Shown here one piece after another: positions 1-18,907 of a stretch of 30,258 nt of DNA. Location of the stretch: positions 1 to 30,258 of IMG/VR virus record IMGVR_UViG_3300003177_000013. One strand, written 5' to 3'. Positions within the stretch are counted from its first letter, which is position 1. Every line of letters begins with the position of its first letter. The position numbers and the translations under genes are program-made. The notes under the pieces were generated by a model. It was given only the letters and a program-made list of their open reading frames with translations, did no database searches and was not told the origin of the DNA. The DNA comes from a virus.

Positions 1-681
1 TTTGTTTCTCTGAATTCTTATATTTCTATTTCCTTTATATGTTTCTTCACCTTGAATAACTAATTCCATTCTAGACTTTTTGTACATATCTTTATCATTT
101 TTATATTTTCTACCAAACCATGTACTAAGATATGGTTTTGATTGATATTTTGCAAGTCTATTTTTTAAAAATTGTAAATTTTTCTTCTTTCCTTTTACAA
201 AATTTCTATTAAAATGCTTATGCTCATTTTTCTCAGTCATATCTTTAAGTTCTTTTTCTATAAACAGAATCTTATTTTCTAAATTGGATATTGTTTTTGA
301 GTAATGGGTATCCATAGAATCAATTTTACCTTTAGCAAAAGAATAAACAGATAAAGCTTCATATGCCATCAAACCCCATCTAGACTGTTGACCTATTTTA
401 CTGCATTCATTAGCTGAGAGAATTTTTCCTTTTTGTATTTGTGAAAATATCCATCTAGAAAAAGAAGATTGTCTATCCATCTTACTTACAATTTTATTGT
501 AATCTTCTTCATTTAGTAAGTTTTCTAATCCCATTGTCATGGTTCGCTTTTCTAATATTGAATCAATATCATACTTGTCAGTTTTTGTGCTGTATTTTAT
601 GTGACCAATTGAACGCCAAAATTTTAATTCTGTTTCTGATATTTTTAGCTTATTTAGAATTTTCTCTTCAGTTAGATACAT
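1..681 (-). CDS. tnpB: TnpB-like RNA-guided nuclease, partial (C-terminal part beyond left edge)
   Basis: This open frame starts at ATG 681 and runs off the left edge, giving the first 227 residues. It overlaps the end of tnpA by 14 nt, the usual tnpA-tnpB layout of IS607 elements. Residues 1-47 look like a MerR-type helix-turn-helix (TEEKILNKLKISETELKFW), resembling the N-terminus of the adjacent TnpA. The stretch near residues 180-226 (WFGRKYKND, then GNRNIRIQR) resembles the N-terminal region of IS605/IS607 TnpB proteins. Family knowledge: TnpB is an omega-RNA-guided DNA nuclease related to Cas12. The RuvC and zinc-ribbon residues would lie outside the window, so activity cannot be judged. 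A homing-type role in the phage is inference. Confidence 0.82.
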   Translation of the reverse strand, partial: MYLTEEKILNKLKISETELKFWRSIGHIKYSTKTDKYDIDSILEKRTMTMGLENLLNEEDYNKIVSKMDRQSSFSRWIFSQIQKGKILSANECSKIGQQSRWGLMAYEALSVYSFAKGKIDSMDTHYSKTISNLENKILFIEKELKDMTEKNEHKHFNRNFVKGKKKNLQFLKNRLAKYQSKPYLSTWFGRKYKNDKDMYKKSRMELVIQGEETYKGNRNIRIQRNK

Positions 682-1264
682 CGGTTTTTAACACTCTTTC
701 TATTTCTTTAAGACCTTTTCTTCTATTGGAATATATTTTCATACTGAAGTGATGTATGATAGAAATCAGATCTTCTGTCAATTCTTGCTGAAATGAAGAT
801 TCATCTGTAAGATTGACCACTTCAATTTTTGTTCCAAATTTCTGAAACAATCTTTCAAAATATCCAAAACCAAATCTAGTCAGTCTGTCTTTATATGAGA
901 CATACACAGTTTCTATGTTCCCATCAATGATTTCATCCAATAGTTTATTGAAGTTCTTTCTATTTTCATTCATACCAGACGCTATATCTGAATATATCTC
1001 ATCAACAATTACACCATTTTTGACAACATATTCTCGTATTATTTCAATTTGTCTTTCAAGGTCATGTTTTTGTTTTGTATTAGAAACTCTTCCATATATA
1101 ACATGTCTCTTTTTTAAATCATCACCAAGCTCATTATCGATATACATATATCTTCCACTTTCCATAACTTTATATTTAATCTTTTTTCCCTTTCTCCAGT
1201 TATATAAAGTTTGATTCGTGATCTTATATTTTTGTTTTATTTCTTTTGCTGTATATAGTTCCAT
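668..1264 (-). CDS. tnpA: IS607-family serine recombinase (TnpA)
   Basis: This is a 198-residue protein of the usual IS607 TnpA length. Residues 1-50 form a MerR-type winged helix-turn-helix (YTAKEIKQKYKITNQTLYNW). A small serine-recombinase catalytic domain follows: YGRVS with the probable nucleophile Ser61, an LERQ segment near 69-72, the IASG motif near 94-97 and DRLTR at 126-130. It would catalyse insertion and excision of the element through a phosphoserine intermediate. It sits directly downstream of the prohead protease gene and shares its direction, with a phage late-type promoter box 25 nt ahead of the ATG. No clear element ends were recognised. Confidence 0.92.
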   Translation of the reverse strand: MELYTAKEIKQKYKITNQTLYNWRKGKKIKYKVMESGRYMYIDNELGDDLKKRHVIYGRVSNTKQKHDLERQIEIIREYVVKNGVIVDEIYSDIASGMNENRKNFNKLLDEIIDGNIETVYVSYKDRLTRFGFGYFERLFQKFGTKIEVVNLTDESSFQQELTEDLISIIHHFSMKIYSNRRKGLKEIERVLKTDVSN

Positions 1265-3153: not shown

Positions 3154-3334
3154 CTTTAAGTTGAAGCTCTTTAGTTTCTTGAGCTTTATCTATTGCACTT
3201 TGATATACAGATTTTTCAGCAGAATATATCTTATATGTATCATTGTTTTGTTTAATATCTTCTAGCTTATCTTTGACAGCATCTTTAAAATCTGTGTATG
3301 ATTTATCTATTGCACTTTTAATTATATTTTCCAT
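3131..3334 (-). CDS. Small prohead-core candidate in the gp67/68 position
   Basis: A 67-residue, Lys/Asp/Glu-rich and probably helical protein directly after the portal gene: its ATG at 3334 abuts the portal stop. In T4 the small acidic/basic core proteins gp67 and gp68 lie at this position between 20 and 21 and help build the prohead scaffold. The assignment rests on position, size and composition only. No diagnostic motif was seen. Confidence 0.5.
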   Translation of the reverse strand: MENIIKSAIDKSYTDFKDAVKDKLEDIKQNNDTYKIYSAEKSVYQSAIDKAQETKELQLKDEPTGDE

Positions 3335-4810
3335 TTATTCTTCCTCAGTTTGAATTTCACCAGATTTTTTCTCTTGGTCTATTTGTTTCTTCATTTCTTG
3401 AATTTCATCATCACTCAAATTCAACACATTTTTCTTTACAAATTCTCTTGAATAGTAAGTACCAACATATTCTTCTATGTCATTGAGAATATCTATTCTC
3501 TTAGATAAAGTTTCTAGTCTCTTAGTTTCAGAAAATTTCATATCATCAGGATATTTGAATGATATCGATTCTTGAATATCTTCAAACTCATCTTGAGTCA
3601 TGATTTTTGTTGAAACAACTTCTCTTTTTAACAGTTCAAGAAAAATGTCATTAAACTTATTTCTAAGTCTAAATATGAAATTCAGAAATCTCAATTCCTC
3701 TCTTGAGATTTCTGTTGCCGTTAGATCATACATAGAATCTTGTGACTCATTATTCATTCTGTTTGCTGGAACCTTAAGAGACTTTAGAAATTTATCTCTG
3801 AAATATTTAATATCATCCAACTCACCAAGATTCATCCCAGAACCAACTGTATCTATTTCTATATCTTTAGCTGAATTTTTAGTCGGCAACCAAATGTCTT
3901 CTGTCAGTGAGATCAAATGAGAATTGTTAGTAACTTCACCAGTTTCAGAGTTATAAGATTTATTAAACTTAAATTTACTAATTAGACCCTGCATATATGA
4001 TACTGCTTTATTTTTAGGCATATTCCCAACATTAACCTTAAAAACTCTCTTCTCAGTACCACGAGTCATTCTATACACAACTATGATGTCTTCAATCATA
4101 GAGAGTTGGTTAAATGTTTTAACTGATCTATCTAAGAACCCGATCTTTCTACCCTTAGCATCTTTTAGACCTGAATCAGACCAGATAAGTTGATCTTTAA
4201 GGTAAGTCATGTTTCCATTGTAGTCTGTCTTCCAGTAGTCTTCCATACCTGTTCCAGTATCTGAATACTTATACACAACTTCATTTGACTTTTCATCAAA
4301 CTCTTTATATAGATTGTGAGGAGTTAGTACAACAACATTTTGAATTCCATCTTTCATATTACTTTCATCGAAAACGCACTCGAGTGCAATACCACCATCC
4401 ACATACCAATCTCTAAAAATATCTTGACCATTCTTAGTGAACTTCATTAATCTAAGTATCTTATCGAATGCAGTTTGAATCTTTTCCTGGATCTGTTCTG
4501 AAATGTCTGCTTCTTGAAAATCTAATCTAATTGGTTCTCTATCAATACCACTCATAAATTCATTTGTTATTTCATCTATTGCTTCTCCGCCATCCGGTGA
4601 ACTTGCAATATTTCTATATACTTTTATTAGATCTGAATGAGATAGTTTCTCGACCTTTTGATCAACTATTCCACCTGTTAGATTTATTAGTTGAGAAAGG
4701 TCAAGATCATCGCCTAAATCTTTCACTATATGTTCAGGTGACACTATTGATAGATCTTTAGGTTCTTCATTACTTAAGAACGGTTTCTTAAGAGCTTCTA
4801 GAATATTCAT
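3335..4810 (-). CDS. 20: Portal vertex protein, T4 gp20-like
   Basis: This 491-residue protein (T4 gp20 is 524) forms the dodecameric portal through which DNA enters and leaves the head. Diagnostic features include YRNIASSPDGGEAIDEITNE (65-84), DWYVDGGIALE (134-144), and the strongly conserved segment 236-270 with LSMIEDIIVVYRMTR followed by EKRVFKVNVGNMPK. Near the end is a region with SRE and RNKF in a helical wing, and the C-terminal tail is acidic and Gln-rich. The gene lies 8 nt after the 180-residue gene and abuts the small core-like gene, as expected of a head-assembly operon. Confidence 0.96.
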   Translation of the reverse strand: MNILEALKKPFLSNEEPKDLSIVSPEHIVKDLGDDLDLSQLINLTGGIVDQKVEKLSHSDLIKVYRNIASSPDGGEAIDEITNEFMSGIDREPIRLDFQEADISEQIQEKIQTAFDKILRLMKFTKNGQDIFRDWYVDGGIALECVFDESNMKDGIQNVVVLTPHNLYKEFDEKSNEVVYKYSDTGTGMEDYWKTDYNGNMTYLKDQLIWSDSGLKDAKGRKIGFLDRSVKTFNQLSMIEDIIVVYRMTRGTEKRVFKVNVGNMPKNKAVSYMQGLISKFKFNKSYNSETGEVTNNSHLISLTEDIWLPTKNSAKDIEIDTVGSGMNLGELDDIKYFRDKFLKSLKVPANRMNNESQDSMYDLTATEISREELRFLNFIFRLRNKFNDIFLELLKREVVSTKIMTQDEFEDIQESISFKYPDDMKFSETKRLETLSKRIDILNDIEEYVGTYYSREFVKKNVLNLSDDEIQEMKKQIDQEKKSGEIQTEEE

Positions 4811-12801: not shown

Positions 12802-13971
12802 ATGAGTAAAATAAACCAAGTATTATCATCTACAATTTCTGATAGTGTTTCACAGTCAGTAAACATTAATAGATTAGTATCTAAGTTTGATTTTTGTCTA
12901 GAGAGCATTCTATATAGAAGTGAAGAAATTGATAAAATTCTTAAGAAGTTCAAGAAAAAGTTTAAGAAAATCAGCATAGAGAAAATTGAGTTTGATATCA
13001 ACACAACTCAAACTTTCATAGAGACAGATGAGTTTTGTGTCATTCTGACTCAATCCTATGGTAATCTTTATGGTGATATTTTTTCTGAAAATGTCTCATC
13101 TGGCAATAACCTTAAGAAATTTTTAAATAAGTATGAAAATAGGACTTCAGAGGTCACGTTAATCTTTGATAACTATTCTTTATCTGGTGGAAAATTAACA
13201 ACTAATACAGTAATGAAGTCACCTAAAGATTATAAAGATGTAGTTTCAGATTTTTATCCATTTTTAGATACTGATGAATTTTTTAGACAGTTCTTAGACT
13301 CTGATTCCAATATTCTTATTTTACATGGTGAAAGAGGGTGTGGAAAATCTAAGTTTATTGCTCTCTTCAATAAGTTTTTAGTGGATAACATTGCTGAATA
13401 TAAAGAATATTCAGTGAACTATGATATAGGTGAACCTTCTTTTATTTTTAGTACAGTTAAGAATGAACAACTTTTATCTGATGATGGTTTTTGGTCTGAA
13501 AGTTATAAGAATAATCCTTGTGCAATATTCTTAGATGATCTTGATGGTATGTTACACTCAAGAACCAATGTTGTTGATTCTGGTTTAGAGGTTGAAAAGA
13601 ATAAGTTTGTTTCTCAACTTTTAAGCTTCAGTGATGGAATTCACAAAGATTCAAATAGAACTAAAGTGATCATAACAACAAATCAGAAGTTAGATGATAT
13701 AGATTCTGCATTGACTAGAAAAGGAAGACTTTTTGATATTTTGGAATTTAGAGAATTGACTAGAGAAGAGGCATTAAAAATATGGAAAAAGAACTTTAAA
13801 AAAGAAGAATTTCCGTTTGATTCTGATTTAGTTCGTCAATCAGATTTAGCTGATGCAATGGATATCAAGAAACGTGAAATAAAGAAGAATAGAAAATATA
13901 AGAATTATTTATTAGATGATTCAGTTAGTAGTGTTGAAAAGCATTCAAAGAAAAGAGTTGGTTTAGTTTAA
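12802..13971 (+). CDS. AAA+ ATPase of unknown role
   Basis: A 389-residue protein. Residues 1-165 are an unrecognised N-terminal region with a Lys-rich helix near 44-57. Residues 170-335 are an AAA+ module: Walker A GERGCGKS (176-183), Walker B AIFLDDLDG (241-249), sensor-1 ITTN (291-294), and ALTRKGRLFD (303-312) resembling the arginine-finger region. The AAA+ lid follows. Such ATPases remodel proteins or nucleic acids, and the substrate is not evident. It has a strong AGGGAG ribosome site and lies directly upstream of the terminase region, separated by a perfect 10 bp hairpin. Confidence 0.85.
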   Translation: MSKINQVLSSTISDSVSQSVNINRLVSKFDFCLESILYRSEEIDKILKKFKKKFKKISIEKIEFDINTTQTFIETDEFCVILTQSYGNLYGDIFSENVSSGNNLKKFLNKYENRTSEVTLIFDNYSLSGGKLTTNTVMKSPKDYKDVVSDFYPFLDTDEFFRQFLDSDSNILILHGERGCGKSKFIALFNKFLVDNIAEYKEYSVNYDIGEPSFIFSTVKNEQLLSDDGFWSESYKNNPCAIFLDDLDGMLHSRTNVVDSGLEVEKNKFVSQLLSFSDGIHKDSNRTKVIITTNQKLDDIDSALTRKGRLFDILEFRELTREEALKIWKKNFKKEEFPFDSDLVRQSDLADAMDIKKREIKKNRKYKNYLLDDSVSSVEKHSKKRVGLV

Positions 13972-14044: not shown

Positions 14045-14503
14045 TTGAATAAGCAAAATTGGCAAGACAATGAAAATTTATTACTCCCTAGAAATGATGA
14101 AGGGTTTTTTCTAGATGTAGACGGGAACGAAATATCATTCTTTGGTGACCCTGATTTATTACCAAAAGGTACAAAACTTCCATATACAGAAGATATGTTA
14201 ATAGAGATAGCAAAATGTAGAGATGATATTATATATTTCACCAATAACTATTTCAAAGCTATGACTCCACATGGCTTTGATTTTGTTGAGTTGTATGATT
14301 TTCAAGAAGAAACTTTAAAAAGTTGGGAAGTGAATTACAAGAACGTTTTGATGGAAAGTAGACAAATGGGTAAGTGCCAACACAAAGACACACTATTGAC
14401 TTTAAATACTAAAGATGGTGTAAAAGAACAATCAATAGGTGATCTATTCAATGAATCAAAATTGGAGTTTGAAGATAATCTCAATTTTAATCTTATATCT
14501 TAA
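14045..14503 (+). CDS. 17: Large terminase piece 1: N-terminal extein plus split intein 1 N-half
   Basis: A 152-residue protein starting at TTG 14045 (AAGGA nine nt upstream). Residues 1-110 are the N-terminal part of a T4 gp17-type packaging motor, with the adenine-binding region near FDFVELYDFQEE (78-89) and the P-loop NVLMESRQMGK (100-110). The P-loop is interrupted after its lysine. Residues 111-152 begin with Cys111 in CQHKDTLLTL, a typical intein block A, and end after only 42 residues. There is no intein block B here, so this is an atypically short N-half. The protein would be inactive until joined to the second piece at 15728-16516, which supplies the missing Ser of the P-loop. Confidence 0.93.
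   Translation: MNKQNWQDNENLLLPRNDEGFFLDVDGNEISFFGDPDLLPKGTKLPYTEDMLIEIAKCRDDIIYFTNNYFKAMTPHGFDFVELYDFQEETLKSWEVNYKNVLMESRQMGKCQHKDTLLTLNTKDGVKEQSIGDLFNESKLEFEDNLNFNLIS
14375..14500 (+). other. Split intein 1, N-half (42 residues)
   Basis: Cys at 14375-14377 follows the extein Lys. Block A is CQHKDTLLTLNTKDGVKEQS. The half ends at TAA 14501, far earlier than in canonical split inteins, whose N-halves are about 90-120 residues. Confidence 0.88.
14401..14410 (+). promoter_or_regulatory. Late-box match inside the intein 1 N-half
   Basis: An exact TTTAAATACT lies within coding sequence, 140 nt before the homing endonuclease gene. It may transcribe the endonuclease and the second terminase piece, or may be chance in AT-rich DNA. 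Confidence 0.3.
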
Positions 14504-14550
14504 TTTTAATTTAAGTCTTTTTACGCTATGCTAAAAATAAAAGGACATAT

Positions 14551-15759
14551 ATGAGAAGCAAATTCAAACGAAAATATAATTTAGTTAGTCTTGTGAAATC
14601 TAAAAAGATATCAGTACCAAAAGAAATCATACAAGATGAACGAACTCAGATTATATATGTTTCTATTGAAGATATCAATAAAATTTTAGTAAACGAAACA
14701 GATAGATTAGGTAGACCATATAAGAAAAGAACTTTAAGAAATCTATTAAATACAAAATATATGAAAGAAAATCTTAAAGAACTTCCGACTCTTTCACAAT
14801 TTAGAGAACTTAAAAAGATAGTTTATCTTGAAAGATATGGGTTTTTATACAATAAAAAACTTCTTTGTGATTTAATTCTTGCTGGTGTGAATGATAGATA
14901 CATTTTAAGATTGTCTATTTTGAGTAATCTTAAAGCCACTGATAGCAAACTTAACTTTATTACAATATATGGATATAAACTTGGTTTAGAAAAATGGAAA
15001 GAATTAAAATCAGATAAAATTAAGGGTGATAAAAATCCTGCGTATCAACACGGTGGAAAATTTAGTCCATTCAGTACAAAATTTGTAAAATATAAAGATG
15101 ATCCAGACTCCGAAGAAAAGATCAAGTCTCTAAAGAAACAAGTATCAGATACTAGAAAAGAAAATCATTCATATAATTCAACACTGGAATATTACCTGAC
15201 TCGTGGATATTCTGAAGAAGAAGCAGAAAAAGCTTTAAGTAAACGTCAATCAACTTTTTCTTTAGAAAAATGTATTCAACGATACGGTGAAGAAGAAGGA
15301 ACTAAAGTTTGGAAAGAAAGACAAGATAATTGGCAAGAAACTTTAAACTCTAAAAGCAAAGAAGAGAAAGACAGAATTCGACAAGCAAAGAGTACAGGAA
15401 GAATGTGCCAATTATTCAATAGCGATGAAAGTGTGAAATATATAGATGGTGTGGTTTATTTCATAAAATTCTCACACAATGGTACTGAATTTTGGAAGAT
15501 AGGAATAACTTCTGTTGGAGTAGACAGAAGATTTAAAGAGAAAACACTATCGAAAAGATTTTCAATTGAAATGGAAGTGTTATATGAATTAAAATCTTCT
15601 TTCTACAAGTGTTTCAAAATAGAACAAAATATACTTAGAAAATATAAAGAAAAAAGAATAAATATAGATATAGAAGGATTCCAATCAACTGAATGCTTTT
15701 CAGAAGATATTTTTAAAGGAAATTATAATGAAATTGAAACTTTCAGACACGATCACTAG
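14551..15759 (+). CDS. Free-standing homing endonuclease, GIY-YIG-like (T5orf172/MUG113 type), in the intein 1 gap
   Basis: A 402-residue protein with its own start and AAAAGGA site. Residues about 295-320 read DGVVYFIKF...FWKIGITS followed by an Arg-Arg pair (VDRRF), the signature of GIY-YIG-superfamily nucleases of the T5orf172/MUG113 group, with a later Glu (FKIEQNIL). Near 158-175 is GDKNPAYQHGGKFSPFS, a segment I associate with phage homing endonucleases, and LEKCIQRYGEEEGTKVWKER (residues 233-252) is a likely DNA-binding repeat. It lies exactly between the two halves of intein 1 and overlaps the next terminase piece by 32 nt, so it is expected to spread the interruption by cutting uninterrupted terminase genes. 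The target site is not shown. Confidence 0.8.
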   Translation: MRSKFKRKYNLVSLVKSKKISVPKEIIQDERTQIIYVSIEDINKILVNETDRLGRPYKKRTLRNLLNTKYMKENLKELPTLSQFRELKKIVYLERYGFLYNKKLLCDLILAGVNDRYILRLSILSNLKATDSKLNFITIYGYKLGLEKWKELKSDKIKGDKNPAYQHGGKFSPFSTKFVKYKDDPDSEEKIKSLKKQVSDTRKENHSYNSTLEYYLTRGYSEEEAEKALSKRQSTFSLEKCIQRYGEEEGTKVWKERQDNWQETLNSKSKEEKDRIRQAKSTGRMCQLFNSDESVKYIDGVVYFIKFSHNGTEFWKIGITSVGVDRRFKEKTLSKRFSIEMEVLYELKSSFYKCFKIEQNILRKYKEKRINIDIEGFQSTECFSEDIFKGNYNEIETFRHDH

Positions 15760-16096
15760 AAAGTTTATAGAAACATATCCAGTTAAAGACAAAGAAGTCT
15801 TAACACATAATGGATATAAACCAATTAAAACTATTTCAAAGACTATTGTCTATGAAGTATATAAAGTTACTCTAGAAAATGGAATGAGCATTAAATGTGC
15901 AGATGACCATATATTGATGACTGAGGATCTCGAAGAGGTGTTTGCAAAGGATTCTCTACATAAGGTATTGAATACTGTTAATGGCAGTTCTAGGGTGATT
16001 TCTGTTATTAATACTGGTAAGTCTGAAAATATGTATGATATAGAAGTAGATTCTGAGGATCATCTATTTTATTCTGATGGAATATTGTCTCACAAT
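15728..16096 (+). other. Split intein 1, C-half (123 residues)
   Basis: It begins at its own ATG and ends with Ser-His-Asn (Asn codon 16094-16096), followed by Ser as the +1 extein residue. It contains the block-B-like and blocks F/G regions, so the break lies before block B, as in the known AceL-TerL atypical split intein. Confidence 0.88.
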
Positions 16097-16516
16097 TCAA
16101 TGGTGGCTTCTATATTCATTTTATATTCCATAGTTTTCGGGAAAGATCTTTCTGTTGGTATAGCAGCAAATAAACAAATTATGTCTATAGAAATTCTCGA
16201 AAAAGTTAAGGAAGCTTATAGAAATCTTCCTATGTGGTTACAACCAGGAGTAGAAAAATGGAATACAATTTCTATTAAATTAAGTAATGGTTGTATGATA
16301 AGAACAGCAGCAACAAGTGCTAGTGCATTTCGTGGTATGACTTTTGCATCTGAATATAAATTAGAAAGAAGTGAAGGATATGATGATATAATTCTAAGCT
16401 CTATATTATATGTTGATGAGTGTGTGGAAAAAGAGACACTTTTAACTGTTCGAAATAAAGAGAATGGTAAAATAGAAACAATCACTATTGGAGAACTAGA
16501 TGAAAGACTTTCTTGA
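15728..16516 (+). CDS. 17: Large terminase piece 2: intein 1 C-half, middle extein, intein 2 N-half
   Basis: A 262-residue protein with AAAGGA seven nt before its ATG. Residues 1-123 are the long C-half of intein 1, including a block-B-like NGMSIKCADDHILMT (51-65), with Ala instead of the usual Thr at H-3, and the C-terminal YDIEVDSEDHLFYSDGILSHN. Splicing would occur before Ser124. Residues 124-231 are the middle extein: SMVASIFILY completes the P-loop, SASAFRGMTF is conserved in gp17-type ATPases, and ILYVDE is Walker B. Residues 232-262 start with Cys232 (CVEKETLLTV) and form the 31-residue N-half of intein 2. A 17-residue insertion precedes Walker B (residues 209-225). Confidence 0.93.
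   Translation: MKLKLSDTITRKFIETYPVKDKEVLTHNGYKPIKTISKTIVYEVYKVTLENGMSIKCADDHILMTEDLEEVFAKDSLHKVLNTVNGSSRVISVINTGKSENMYDIEVDSEDHLFYSDGILSHNSMVASIFILYSIVFGKDLSVGIAANKQIMSIEILEKVKEAYRNLPMWLQPGVEKWNTISIKLSNGCMIRTAATSASAFRGMTFASEYKLERSEGYDDIILSSILYVDECVEKETLLTVRNKENGKIETITIGELDERLS
16421..16513 (+). other. Split intein 2, N-half (31 residues)
   Basis: Cys at 16421-16423 directly follows the Walker B Asp-Glu. Block A is CVEKETLLTV, with a short IGELDERLS tail and a TGA stop at 16514. The 31-residue length is close to the short N-half reported for AceL-TerL. Confidence 0.88.
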
Positions 16517-17573
16517 AAATAAAGATATAATCATTGACAATTTGCTAGAAATATCTGATGAAGAAAGAAAAATTATAGAATATGTAGAATTTATAGAGAG
16601 GAATTATGTAGAGAATAGAAAAAACAATACAGAACTTCATCATATCTTACCAAAATGTGTATTTAAAAAATACAAGAACTTAAAACACTATAAGTGGAAT
16701 GGAGTTCATTTAAGAATTTCTGATCATGTAAAAGCTCATGTGTTGTTATCAGACATTTCACCATTATTCGTGTTTCCTTGGACTCGTGTTTCTGATGGTG
16801 AACTGACATATGAAGAAATCGAAAGAATGAAAGTGAATAATAAGAAAACAATACCAGCAATTGAAATTGAAACTTCTAAAAGAGTGAGAGTACCCAGAGA
16901 AATTTATTTCAATAATAGAGACAAATACAAATATGTTTCAGATAGAAGTGGTGAAAAAAATTCTATGTTTGAAAATGGATATAGAATATCAGGAAAGAAA
17001 AACGGTCGCCATCGAGACAATTTTAAAGGAGACTTAGAAAAAATTGGCAAAAAGATAAGTAATACATATCAAAATAAGACAACAGAGGAAAAATTAAGAA
17101 TCAAAGAAAAAGAATTAGAAACAAAAAGAAAAAGAGGGTCCGATAAAATTGGTGCGAAGAAAATGAAAGAAACTAAGAAGAATTGGTCTGAAGAAAAGAG
17201 AGAGGAAATAAAAAAGAAATACTCTAAAATGCAGAAAGATATAAATGATGACCCAAAAAGACGAGAACAAAAAAGACTTAGATTACTAAACACAATGGAA
17301 AAGAAGAAAGAAGAATCGTTTTATTTATATGAGTTATTTTCAGATTGTGGTGAAGTGGTTTCGTCTTTTTTAGTCCATCAAAAGAAAGATATTAAAAAAA
17401 TACTCAGACAGAATAAAATTCCATTAAAATTTCTGTCTTTTCTTGATGAACCATTGGTTGTCATCAATGAATATAGCAGAAGTAGTGATATTTCAAGAGC
17501 AAAGAAAAATGGTTCAATCTTGTTTGAAAATTATATTTTGACTGTTAAGAAAATGGAAAGGATAAGATTTTGA
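16500..17573 (+). CDS. Free-standing HNH homing endonuclease in the intein 2 gap
   Basis: A 357-residue protein. Residues 45-82 hold the HNH motif: ELHHILPKC with His47-His48, Asn68 in KWNGVHLRIS, and DHVKAHVLL with His76 and His80. The remainder is very Lys/Arg-rich (about 150-260), suiting DNA contact, with a GEKNSMFENG stretch resembling the small DNA-binding modules of phage homing nucleases. The ATG overlaps the end of terminase piece 2 by 17 nt and has GGAG six nt upstream. Its TGA overlaps the TTG start of piece 3. It is unrelated to the GIY-YIG-like enzyme in the other gap. Confidence 0.85.
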   Translation: MKDFLENKDIIIDNLLEISDEERKIIEYVEFIERNYVENRKNNTELHHILPKCVFKKYKNLKHYKWNGVHLRISDHVKAHVLLSDISPLFVFPWTRVSDGELTYEEIERMKVNNKKTIPAIEIETSKRVRVPREIYFNNRDKYKYVSDRSGEKNSMFENGYRISGKKNGRHRDNFKGDLEKIGKKISNTYQNKTTEEKLRIKEKELETKRKRGSDKIGAKKMKETKKNWSEEKREEIKKKYSKMQKDINDDPKRREQKRLRLLNTMEKKKEESFYLYELFSDCGEVVSSFLVHQKKDIKKILRQNKIPLKFLSFLDEPLVVINEYSRSSDISRAKKNGSILFENYILTVKKMERIRF

Positions 17574-17887
17574 AAGAGAATTCTAAATATCAAGTTCTTA
17601 CGAATTCTGGATTTAAAGACTTCAAAGGCATTAAAAAGACCACACGAACAGACAATATCAAATTTTATTTCAGTGATGGCTCTGATATAATCGTCACACC
17701 AGAGCATAGATTCTTAGTGTGTAAGAATATTTTTAGGAGAGCTTGTAACATAAAAGTTGACCATAAGATAAAAGATCTTAAAGTTATAGGAAAAGAATAT
17801 AATGTTGAATGTTCAAATGAATTCTTTGATTTAATAGATGTTGATGGTGGAAATAGATATTTAACAAATGGTGTGACTTCTCATAAT
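17570..17887 (+). other. Split intein 2, C-half (106 residues)
   Basis: It ends with Ser-His-Asn (Asn codon 17885-17887) before Cys. Block B with TPEH is intact. The layout (short leading NSGF segment, block B, NGVTSHN end) closely resembles the C-half of AceL-TerL as I remember it. Confidence 0.9.
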
Positions 17888-18907
17888 TGTGCTTTTATTC
17901 CAAAGAACATCTGGGAAGGATTTAAAAAGTCTGTTATACCAACAACATCTAGTGGTAAACATGCTAGAATAATTTATACTTCAACACCTTATGGAATGAA
18001 TCATTTTCATAAAATAGTTCTTGATGCAAAGAATGGAGTAAGTGGTTTTAACTATTTATTCTTTCCTTATTATGCTCACCCAGATAGAAAAGATCCAAAA
18101 TGGAAAGAAGAAAAGATTAAGGAACTTGGTGGTGATTTAGTTACTTGGGCACAGGAATATGAATGTTCATTTTCAACAAGCTCTAGAACCCTTATCAATG
18201 GTGATGTTATTATAAAACAAGAAAGAAAACTTCCCTTAAGAGAAATGGATGGGATCAAAATATATGAAGAACCGATTGAGGGTCACTTTTATACTGCAGG
18301 TGTAGATACAGGTAAGTATTCAGATGAGGGTGATTTTAGTTCTATTCAGATTTTAGATATAACAAAACGTCCATTTAGACAAGTTGCTTCATATAGGGCA
18401 AGAGAGTTGACATATTTTGATTTAGTAGACCCAATCTATAATATTTGTAAGCTATATAATGATGCACTATTGTTTATAGAGAATAATTCTGGTGATGGTC
18501 AAAGCACGGTGGATCTATTAGCTATGAAACACGAATATGAAAATATATATGTTGAAAAACAACCAGTGTATGGATTCAGAACTACAACTTCAACTAGAAA
18601 GATTGGATTACAAAATCTTAAGAAATATACTGAAAGTGGTATGCTCAAGATTTGTGACAATGATACTTTAGAAGAGTTACAATATTTTTCATTACATAAT
18701 GGTAAATATCAAGCAACTGATGGATATTCAGATGATGCAGTTATGGCTTTAGTTGCAAGTATGTTTTTTCTTCAGGATAAGAGTTATGTAGACTCTGAAG
18801 AACTGTATGATTCAATTATTAAAAAGATATCTTCTAATGAAGACGATGAGGATGATATATTTGCATTCGGGTTTGTGTCTGATGGTTCTGGTTCAAGCTT
18901 TTTTTAA
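17570..18907 (+). CDS. 17: Large terminase piece 3: intein 2 C-half plus C-terminal extein with nuclease domain
   Basis: A 445-residue protein starting at TTG 17570, with AAAGGA seven nt upstream and a 4 nt overlap (TTGA) with the HNH gene. Residues 1-106 are the intein 2 C-half: NSGFKDFKG, block B IIVTPEHRFLV (41-50), and the end NRYLTNGVTSHN. Splicing would occur before Cys107. Residues 107-445 continue the gp17-type motor: CAFIPKNIWEGF just after Walker B, the coupling motif IIYTSTPYGMNHF (134-146), and an RNase-H-fold nuclease with GVDTGKYSDEGDFSS (Asp246), LLFIENNSG (Glu303) and GYSDDAVMAL (Asp388/389). The tail is acidic and Gly/Ser-rich. A late box overlaps its stop codon. Confidence 0.94.
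   Translation: MKENSKYQVLTNSGFKDFKGIKKTTRTDNIKFYFSDGSDIIVTPEHRFLVCKNIFRRACNIKVDHKIKDLKVIGKEYNVECSNEFFDLIDVDGGNRYLTNGVTSHNCAFIPKNIWEGFKKSVIPTTSSGKHARIIYTSTPYGMNHFHKIVLDAKNGVSGFNYLFFPYYAHPDRKDPKWKEEKIKELGGDLVTWAQEYECSFSTSSRTLINGDVIIKQERKLPLREMDGIKIYEEPIEGHFYTAGVDTGKYSDEGDFSSIQILDITKRPFRQVASYRARELTYFDLVDPIYNICKLYNDALLFIENNSGDGQSTVDLLAMKHEYENIYVEKQPVYGFRTTTSTRKIGLQNLKKYTESGMLKICDNDTLEELQYFSLHNGKYQATDGYSDDAVMALVASMFFLQDKSYVDSEELYDSIIKKISSNEDDEDDIFAFGFVSDGSGSSFF

Follow-up and report, generated by a model that had tools for sequence, protein, structure and literature searches.

We analysed IMG/VR virus record IMGVR_UViG_3300003177_000013, a 30,258-bp stretch of DNA (hereafter 'the window') from a virus that, judged from its portal, prohead protease and terminase, is a T4-like myovirus. 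The results indicate that its large terminase (TerL; T4 gp17-like) is coded in three same-strand pieces (14045-14503, 15728-16516 and 17570-18907; open-reading-frame (ORF) listing and translation), and we infer from sequence that the pieces are very probably joined by two trans-splicing reactions of two split inteins: intein A, inside Walker A, and intein B, directly after the catalytic glutamate of Walker B. The arrangement known as a fractured gene, in which a free-standing endonuclease gene separates the two halves of a split intein, is found at both breaks.

The three pieces carry successive parts of a T4-type motor, all on the + strand. Extein 1 (14045..14374; 110 aa) extends to Walker A and ends ...SRQMGK before a Cys; extein 2 (16097..16420; 108 aa; T4 T167-E256) resumes with S-M-V after SHN and ends at Walker B, ...ILYVDE, before a Cys; and extein 3 (17888..18907; 339 aa) resumes with C-A-F-I-P after SHN and carries the coupling motif and nuclease domain. 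In T4 numbering, the breaks fall between K166 and T167, inside Walker A, and between E256 and C257, just past the catalytic glutamate of Walker B. Searched against protein families, the pieces hit terminases (phrog_5989, E 4e-21 for extein 1 and 3e-29; phrog_2, E 3e-19, and Terminase_6C, E 1e-5, for extein 3), and the joined pieces, with 557 aa and a calculated mass of 63.95 kDa, match T4 gp17 structures across nearly their full length (E 2e-65); modelled extein 2 superimposes on T4 gp17 with a root-mean-square deviation of 1.0 over 79 columns. Aligned to T4 gp17, the joined protein retains, or replaces only conservatively, S161-K166/T167, D255/E256/C257, T285-T287, D401, D409, E458 and D542; Walker A, Walker B, the coupling motif and the acidic nuclease-site residues of a T4-type large terminase are all present. 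The original prediction, made from the sequence alone, had claimed that three frames carry consecutive gp17 segments, which the ORFs and the family and structure matches to gp17 homologues bear out, and had placed the junctions at QMGK/C, SHN then S-M-V, YVDE/C and SHN then CAFIP, all of which translation confirms. Its claim of an unbroken 557-residue motor holds for length and catalytic residues but not for seamlessness: the motor has 18 more residues than its relatives (see below).

To place the breaks among those of other phages, we draw on a scan of IMG/VR for both junctions (QMGK-side and Walker B-side), which yielded 60 loci, and on mapping of the terminase fragments of relatives onto T4 gp17 numbering. 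The later rows of scan probes A2-A5 were invented junction variants that steered the scans and are not evidence, and loci retrieved with probes A3/A4 were selected for the junction, so that counts among them yield no frequency. The mapping gives at least four TerL insertion points, D (after Q163), A (after K166), B (after E256) and C (around residue 350, within the linker that leads to the nuclease domain); isolates CP21 and IBB_35 add a fifth, E, immediately before Walker B.

The sequences flanking the breaks have the properties of intein halves. Intein A comprises an N-half (InA; 14375..14503; 42 aa and a stop codon), with Cys1, block A and an N2-like motif, and a C-half (IcA; 15728..16096; 123 aa) that begins inside the 3' end of the first nuclease gene and ends ...ILSHN. 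Intein B comprises an N-half (InB; 16421..16516; 31 aa and a stop codon) and a C-half (IcB; 17570..17887; 106 aa) that ends ...VTSHN. Both have Cys1 and a C-terminal SHN, with Ser (A) or Cys (B) as the +1 residue. Both C-halves match the Pfam domain Intein_splicing, which a scan of the whole window finds nowhere else. Among solved structures, IcA matches by sequence the gp41-1 intein (E 2e-7), CatC (E 6e-6) and VidaL, and IcB has as top match CatC (6DSL, a consensus atypically split TerL intein; E 4e-10); N-halves A and B are too short as sequences and gave no matches to solved structures. The predicted fold of the middle piece matches VidaL, gp41-1 and Cat together with T4 gp17, with a predicted TM-score of only 0.47, so that the relative placement of its parts is not interpreted. 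Inteins at the same positions in other phages agree: InA aligns with the N-halves or N-parts of Walker A-site inteins in loci L013, L069 and L070 and in CP220; IcA is about 50% identical to the C-halves of L013, L014 and L069, and its residues 12-123 align with the contiguous CP220 intein; InB and IcB are 43% and 55% identical, respectively, to the L013 intein at site B (L013_B), and together tile, without a gap, the contiguous 132-aa mini-intein that L014 carries at this Walker B position. Because both C-halves match the Pfam intein domain, intein structures and same-position terminase inteins in other phages, chance is not a reasonable explanation for the assignments. The prediction of two atypically split inteins, with halves of 42 and 31 and of 123 and 106 residues and both breaks before block B, is supported on each of these points; intein A would belong to the atypically split class by architecture more than by closest sequence, since gp41-1 scores above CatC.

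Between the halves at each break lies a nuclease gene, and family matches confirm what had been predicted for both. Homing endonuclease 1 (14551..15759; 402 aa), a free-standing GIY-YIG/T5orf172 enzyme, matches PF10544 (E 2e-6) and phrog_681 (E 2e-8) and has its own Shine-Dalgarno (SD) sequence. Homing endonuclease 2 (16500..17573; 357 aa), also free-standing and with an SD sequence, overlaps the intein B N-half, matches phrog_655 (E 1e-7) and, by eye, has an HNH-like motif, H-H..N..H; it has no Pfam match. SD-like sites precede 5 of 5 starts, as compared to 17 of 282 other start-like codons in the region. As a correction to the original prediction, pieces 1 and 3 start with TTG, each with a good ribosome-binding site (SD AAGGA for piece 1). 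Each of the two C-pieces begins within a nuclease gene or at its end, the TTG of IcB overlapping the stop codon of homing endonuclease 2, a layout that would be suited to translational coupling.

The two inteins fall in deeply separated clades, which a pair of trans-splicing reactions within one protein would call for. In a maximum-likelihood tree of 37 C-parts, IcA falls in a clade of Walker A inteins (sites A and D; support 100/100), and IcB is sister to L013_B (99/95) inside a B/C group (100/100); within the window, the C-halves are 20% identical to each other. Across the 37 inteins, N-half and C-half distances correlate (r 0.48; 0 of 5000 permutations as high; shared site ancestry uncorrected), consistent with co-inherited pairs. 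In T4-like phages that share the Walker B split, the ratio of nonsynonymous to synonymous rates (dN/dS) is 0.04-0.11 for intein halves where dS can be estimated, several comparisons being saturated, and 0.10-0.15 for exteins, so that the halves have similar or lower values and are under purifying selection; for IcB compared with L013, dN/dS is 0.29.

We propose that a T4-like TerL gene was invaded by two unrelated inteins at two of the motifs that it conserves best, with a nuclease gene between each pair of halves. The five overlapping or tightly packed ORFs (extein 1-InA, nuclease 1, IcA-extein 2-InB, nuclease 2 and IcB-extein 3) would be translated separately; InA would fold into IcA and InB into IcB; and Cys1/Ser+1 splicing would join exteins 1 and 2, and Cys1/Cys+1 splicing exteins 2 and 3, to give the 557-residue motor. 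Packaging should need both reactions, because the P-loop lysine and the catalytic glutamate are without their native continuation until both have occurred. From the families to which the nucleases belong, homing is presumably how the split alleles are spread. The order C-half, extein, N-half is the topology employed for making cyclic peptides, and cross-reaction of InB with IcA would cyclise extein 2, and of InA with IcB would yield an extein 1-extein 3 product; because the middle piece has this order, orthogonality of the two inteins is predicted. Pairing specificity probably lies mainly in the C-half and in the longer N-half of intein A. All doubly split relatives that we found pair inteins from different site families.

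Isolated phages provide indirect support for the Walker B reaction. Pseudomonas phage PspYZU05 has a TerL broken at this very Walker B position, where an endonuclease separates the halves, and in Campylobacter phage NCTC12673 (Fletchervirus) the Walker B-site TerL parts lie about 26-27 kb apart on opposite strands. In both complete records, a full-length terminase query returned only the two parts and no unbroken TerL. These phages grow, and therefore their terminase in parts must be made functional; reliance on the Walker B reaction is credible. The NCTC12673 parts lie at L073 1405-2121 (-) and L022 6989-8323 (about 46.1-46.8 kb and 72.9-74.2 kb); neither is among the listed coding sequences of GU296433, and the C-part has matches in 40 Campylobacter phage records.

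Doubly split TerL recurs and is not unique to the window. Two split inteins in one TerL are present in L013 (D+B), the L041 group (B+C), L047 (B+C) and L070 (A+C), the window being the only A+B case found among the loci mapped. One split of each pair lacks an intervening nuclease in L013, L047 and L070. Outside the window, most ORFs that fill such gaps code for nucleases, and these are varied: GIY-YIG in L013, a TnsA-like fold in L017, L030 and L041, and homing endonuclease families in L016 and L070; the second-gap ORF of L041 has no family match. L014 combines a split intein at D with a contiguous one at B, and its terminase is broken a third time close to T4 residue 305, where (3300-3640) an N-half-like tail without Cys1 is followed by a short zinc-finger/nuclease-like ORF and no C-half. 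The original prediction knew of no described gene with two such inteins; a limited literature search likewise found no description of a natural doubly split gene, and it is the arrangement itself that proves to recur in other phages.

Several observations weigh against an active, doubly spliced terminase. The C-halves do not reach the curated cut-off of the Pfam intein model, although this is to be expected of halves of split inteins. The N-halves of A and B are 34% identical, and the N-halves closest to InA by identity are Walker B-site ones, and so cross-talk between the two inteins is possible. The window holds no second intact terminase, which had been named beforehand as a finding that would count against the proposal, but the genome is incomplete and one elsewhere in it is possible. 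Single-protein scans with extein 3 and a neck-region protein found no close relatives of the window's phage for a conservation check; its closest tail sheaths, in Vibrio and Campylobacter phages, are only about 35% identical. Finally, an 18-residue insertion that the original prediction overlooked, SEYKLERSEGYDDIILSS (16349-16402, + strand), lies in extein 2 between RGMTFA and ILYVDE, directly ahead of the Walker B strand, and could impair the motor. It is absent from 20 of 20 other terminases aligned (7 intact terminases and 13 relatives), consists of 54 nt, in frame, with TCT at both ends, lies 2 residues from the split-intein site of CP21 (RGFS/CNIIVVDE) and is mostly predicted to be disordered (AlphaFold; predicted local distance difference test <50). 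It may be a surface loop or a scar, and we prefer neither. Translational bypassing of the insertion was considered and rejected: no stop codon or frame change interrupts the insertion, and the codons for a length-restoring bypass do not match.

This insertion, together with the fact that the genome is known as a fragment, is what would favour a decaying terminase in a defective phage, with the inteins as remnants and no active motor. We regard decay as unlikely: five overlapping ORFs are open, each with an SD site, the terminase catalytic residues and intein junction residues tested are kept, IcB is constrained relative to L013 (dN/dS as above), and complete isolates appear to depend on the same Walker B fracture. 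A working terminase made of three polypeptides that associate non-covalently, with no need of the inteins, is very improbable; ribonucleotide reductase from the T4-like NrdA split by MobE reportedly works unligated (cited in PMC3322345), but here one break is inside the P-loop and the other immediately follows the catalytic glutamate, positions at which chain ends and intein appendages of 31-123 residues should abolish ATPase activity, and the splicing residues are all kept and same-site halves are under purifying selection. Removal of the gaps from mRNA as self-splicing introns, with incidental intein-like ends, has precedents in ICP1 terL, spliced at the RNA level (PMC10448857), and in the second terminase interruption of IBB_35, named an intron (PMC3322345), but is hardly credible, as no group I or II intron family is found by Rfam up to E 1 in 13.9-19.3 kb, the coding ends are intein halves right up to the splice points and the IBB_35/CP21 'intron' DNA itself carries intein halves.

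Trans-splicing of the three pieces by two split inteins would extend a known class. The fragment sizes of AceL-TerL (25+104), GOS-TerL (37+115) and Cat-TerL (30+104) are published (PMC11766414). These inteins resemble those of the window in host protein, short N-fragment, C-fragment of about 104-115 aa, Cys/Ser1 and Cys+1, and the window's half lengths are in or near the published atypically split range (N about 25-40 aa, C about 100-125 aa); they are single interruptions, whereas the window's gene is interrupted twice, at Walker A and again at Walker B. We take the AceL and GOS inteins to be at the nuclease-linker site, site C of this analysis. Fractured genes in phage, with a free-standing homing endonuclease gene between split-intein halves, have been described (Dassa et al., 2009, as cited in PMC10448857 and PMC3653736); in the window, two fractures in one gene give three polypeptides, and the nucleases are of the GIY-YIG/T5orf172 and phrog_655 families. 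Mycobacteriophage TerL inteins also cluster in ATPase motifs (PMC5050341) but are contiguous and in terminases of terminase_1/6 types. L013, the L041 group, L047 and L070 share two split inteins, usually with nuclease genes, at other site pairs, and NCTC12673 and PspYZU05 share the identical Walker B split as a single split only. We conclude that fractured genes bearing atypically split TerL inteins form an established class, within which the doubling is a new variant that recurs and is not unique.

Other isolates carry several TerL inteins or related splits. CP21 (L076 439-4746) and IBB_35 (L078 132-5405) have a contiguous intein at D (RQ/SSKS) and a split intein at E (RGFS/CNII) with one or more nuclease genes between the halves, and CP21 also has a contiguous intein at B (VVDE/CAYL); the E-site N-half and B-site C-part of IBB_35 are the same as in CP21. 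CP21 and IBB_35 resemble the window in having several TerL inteins, some of them at Walker B and near Walker A, but differ in that the near-Walker A intein is contiguous and at site D, 3 residues upstream, that the split intein is just before Walker B, and that the CP21 Walker B intein is contiguous. The IBB_35 terminase was published as interrupted by an intein and by an intron with a homing endonuclease (PMC3322345); this 'intron' probably corresponds to split and contiguous inteins. Vibrio phage VP-1 (L077 505-3847) has a contiguous Walker A intein and a split C-site (nuclease-linker) intein, the N-part of which reads in frame into a GIY-YIG-like nuclease. In Providencia phage PSTRCR_127 (L002 1818-4726), a split intein of 35+111 residues interrupts TerL at QEH/CAEF, and its halves flank a GIY-YIG-like ORF; both this nuclease and the TerL N-piece carry the annotation 'hypothetical protein'. 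In Campylobacter phage CJLB-12 (L003 53-2271), a contiguous CP220-type intein is broken by deletion or frameshift into two overlapping frames, the downstream one without an obvious ATG, which may reflect a recent split, decay of the allele or an error in sequencing.

Elsewhere in the window, an AAA-family ATPase gene (12802-13971) lies immediately upstream of the terminase. A serine resolvase with a helix-turn-helix domain, IS607 TnpA-like, is coded at 668-1264 (-), beside an ORF (1-681) that runs off the window end and has no Pfam match.

Tandem trans-splicing that joins three segments by two orthogonal split inteins is an engineered technique (PMC12707363, PMC7210297, PMC7090010), and the window looks like a natural counterpart of this man-made system. 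It is moderately probable that the window represents natural, obligate tandem trans-splicing by two orthogonal inteins, with orthogonality kept by selection against cyclisation of the middle fragment and with recurrence reflecting either a phage strategy or a stable outcome of homing. If so, three-segment protein assembly, so far a technique of engineering, would occur naturally in an enzyme indispensable to the phage. The arrangement would supply ready-made candidate pairs of co-evolved split inteins with short N-fragments and would offer a clean test of whether natural split inteins within one protein evolve orthogonality, and the isolates CP21, VP-1, NCTC12673 and PspYZU05 allow a direct test, in culture, of whether packaging depends on trans-splicing.

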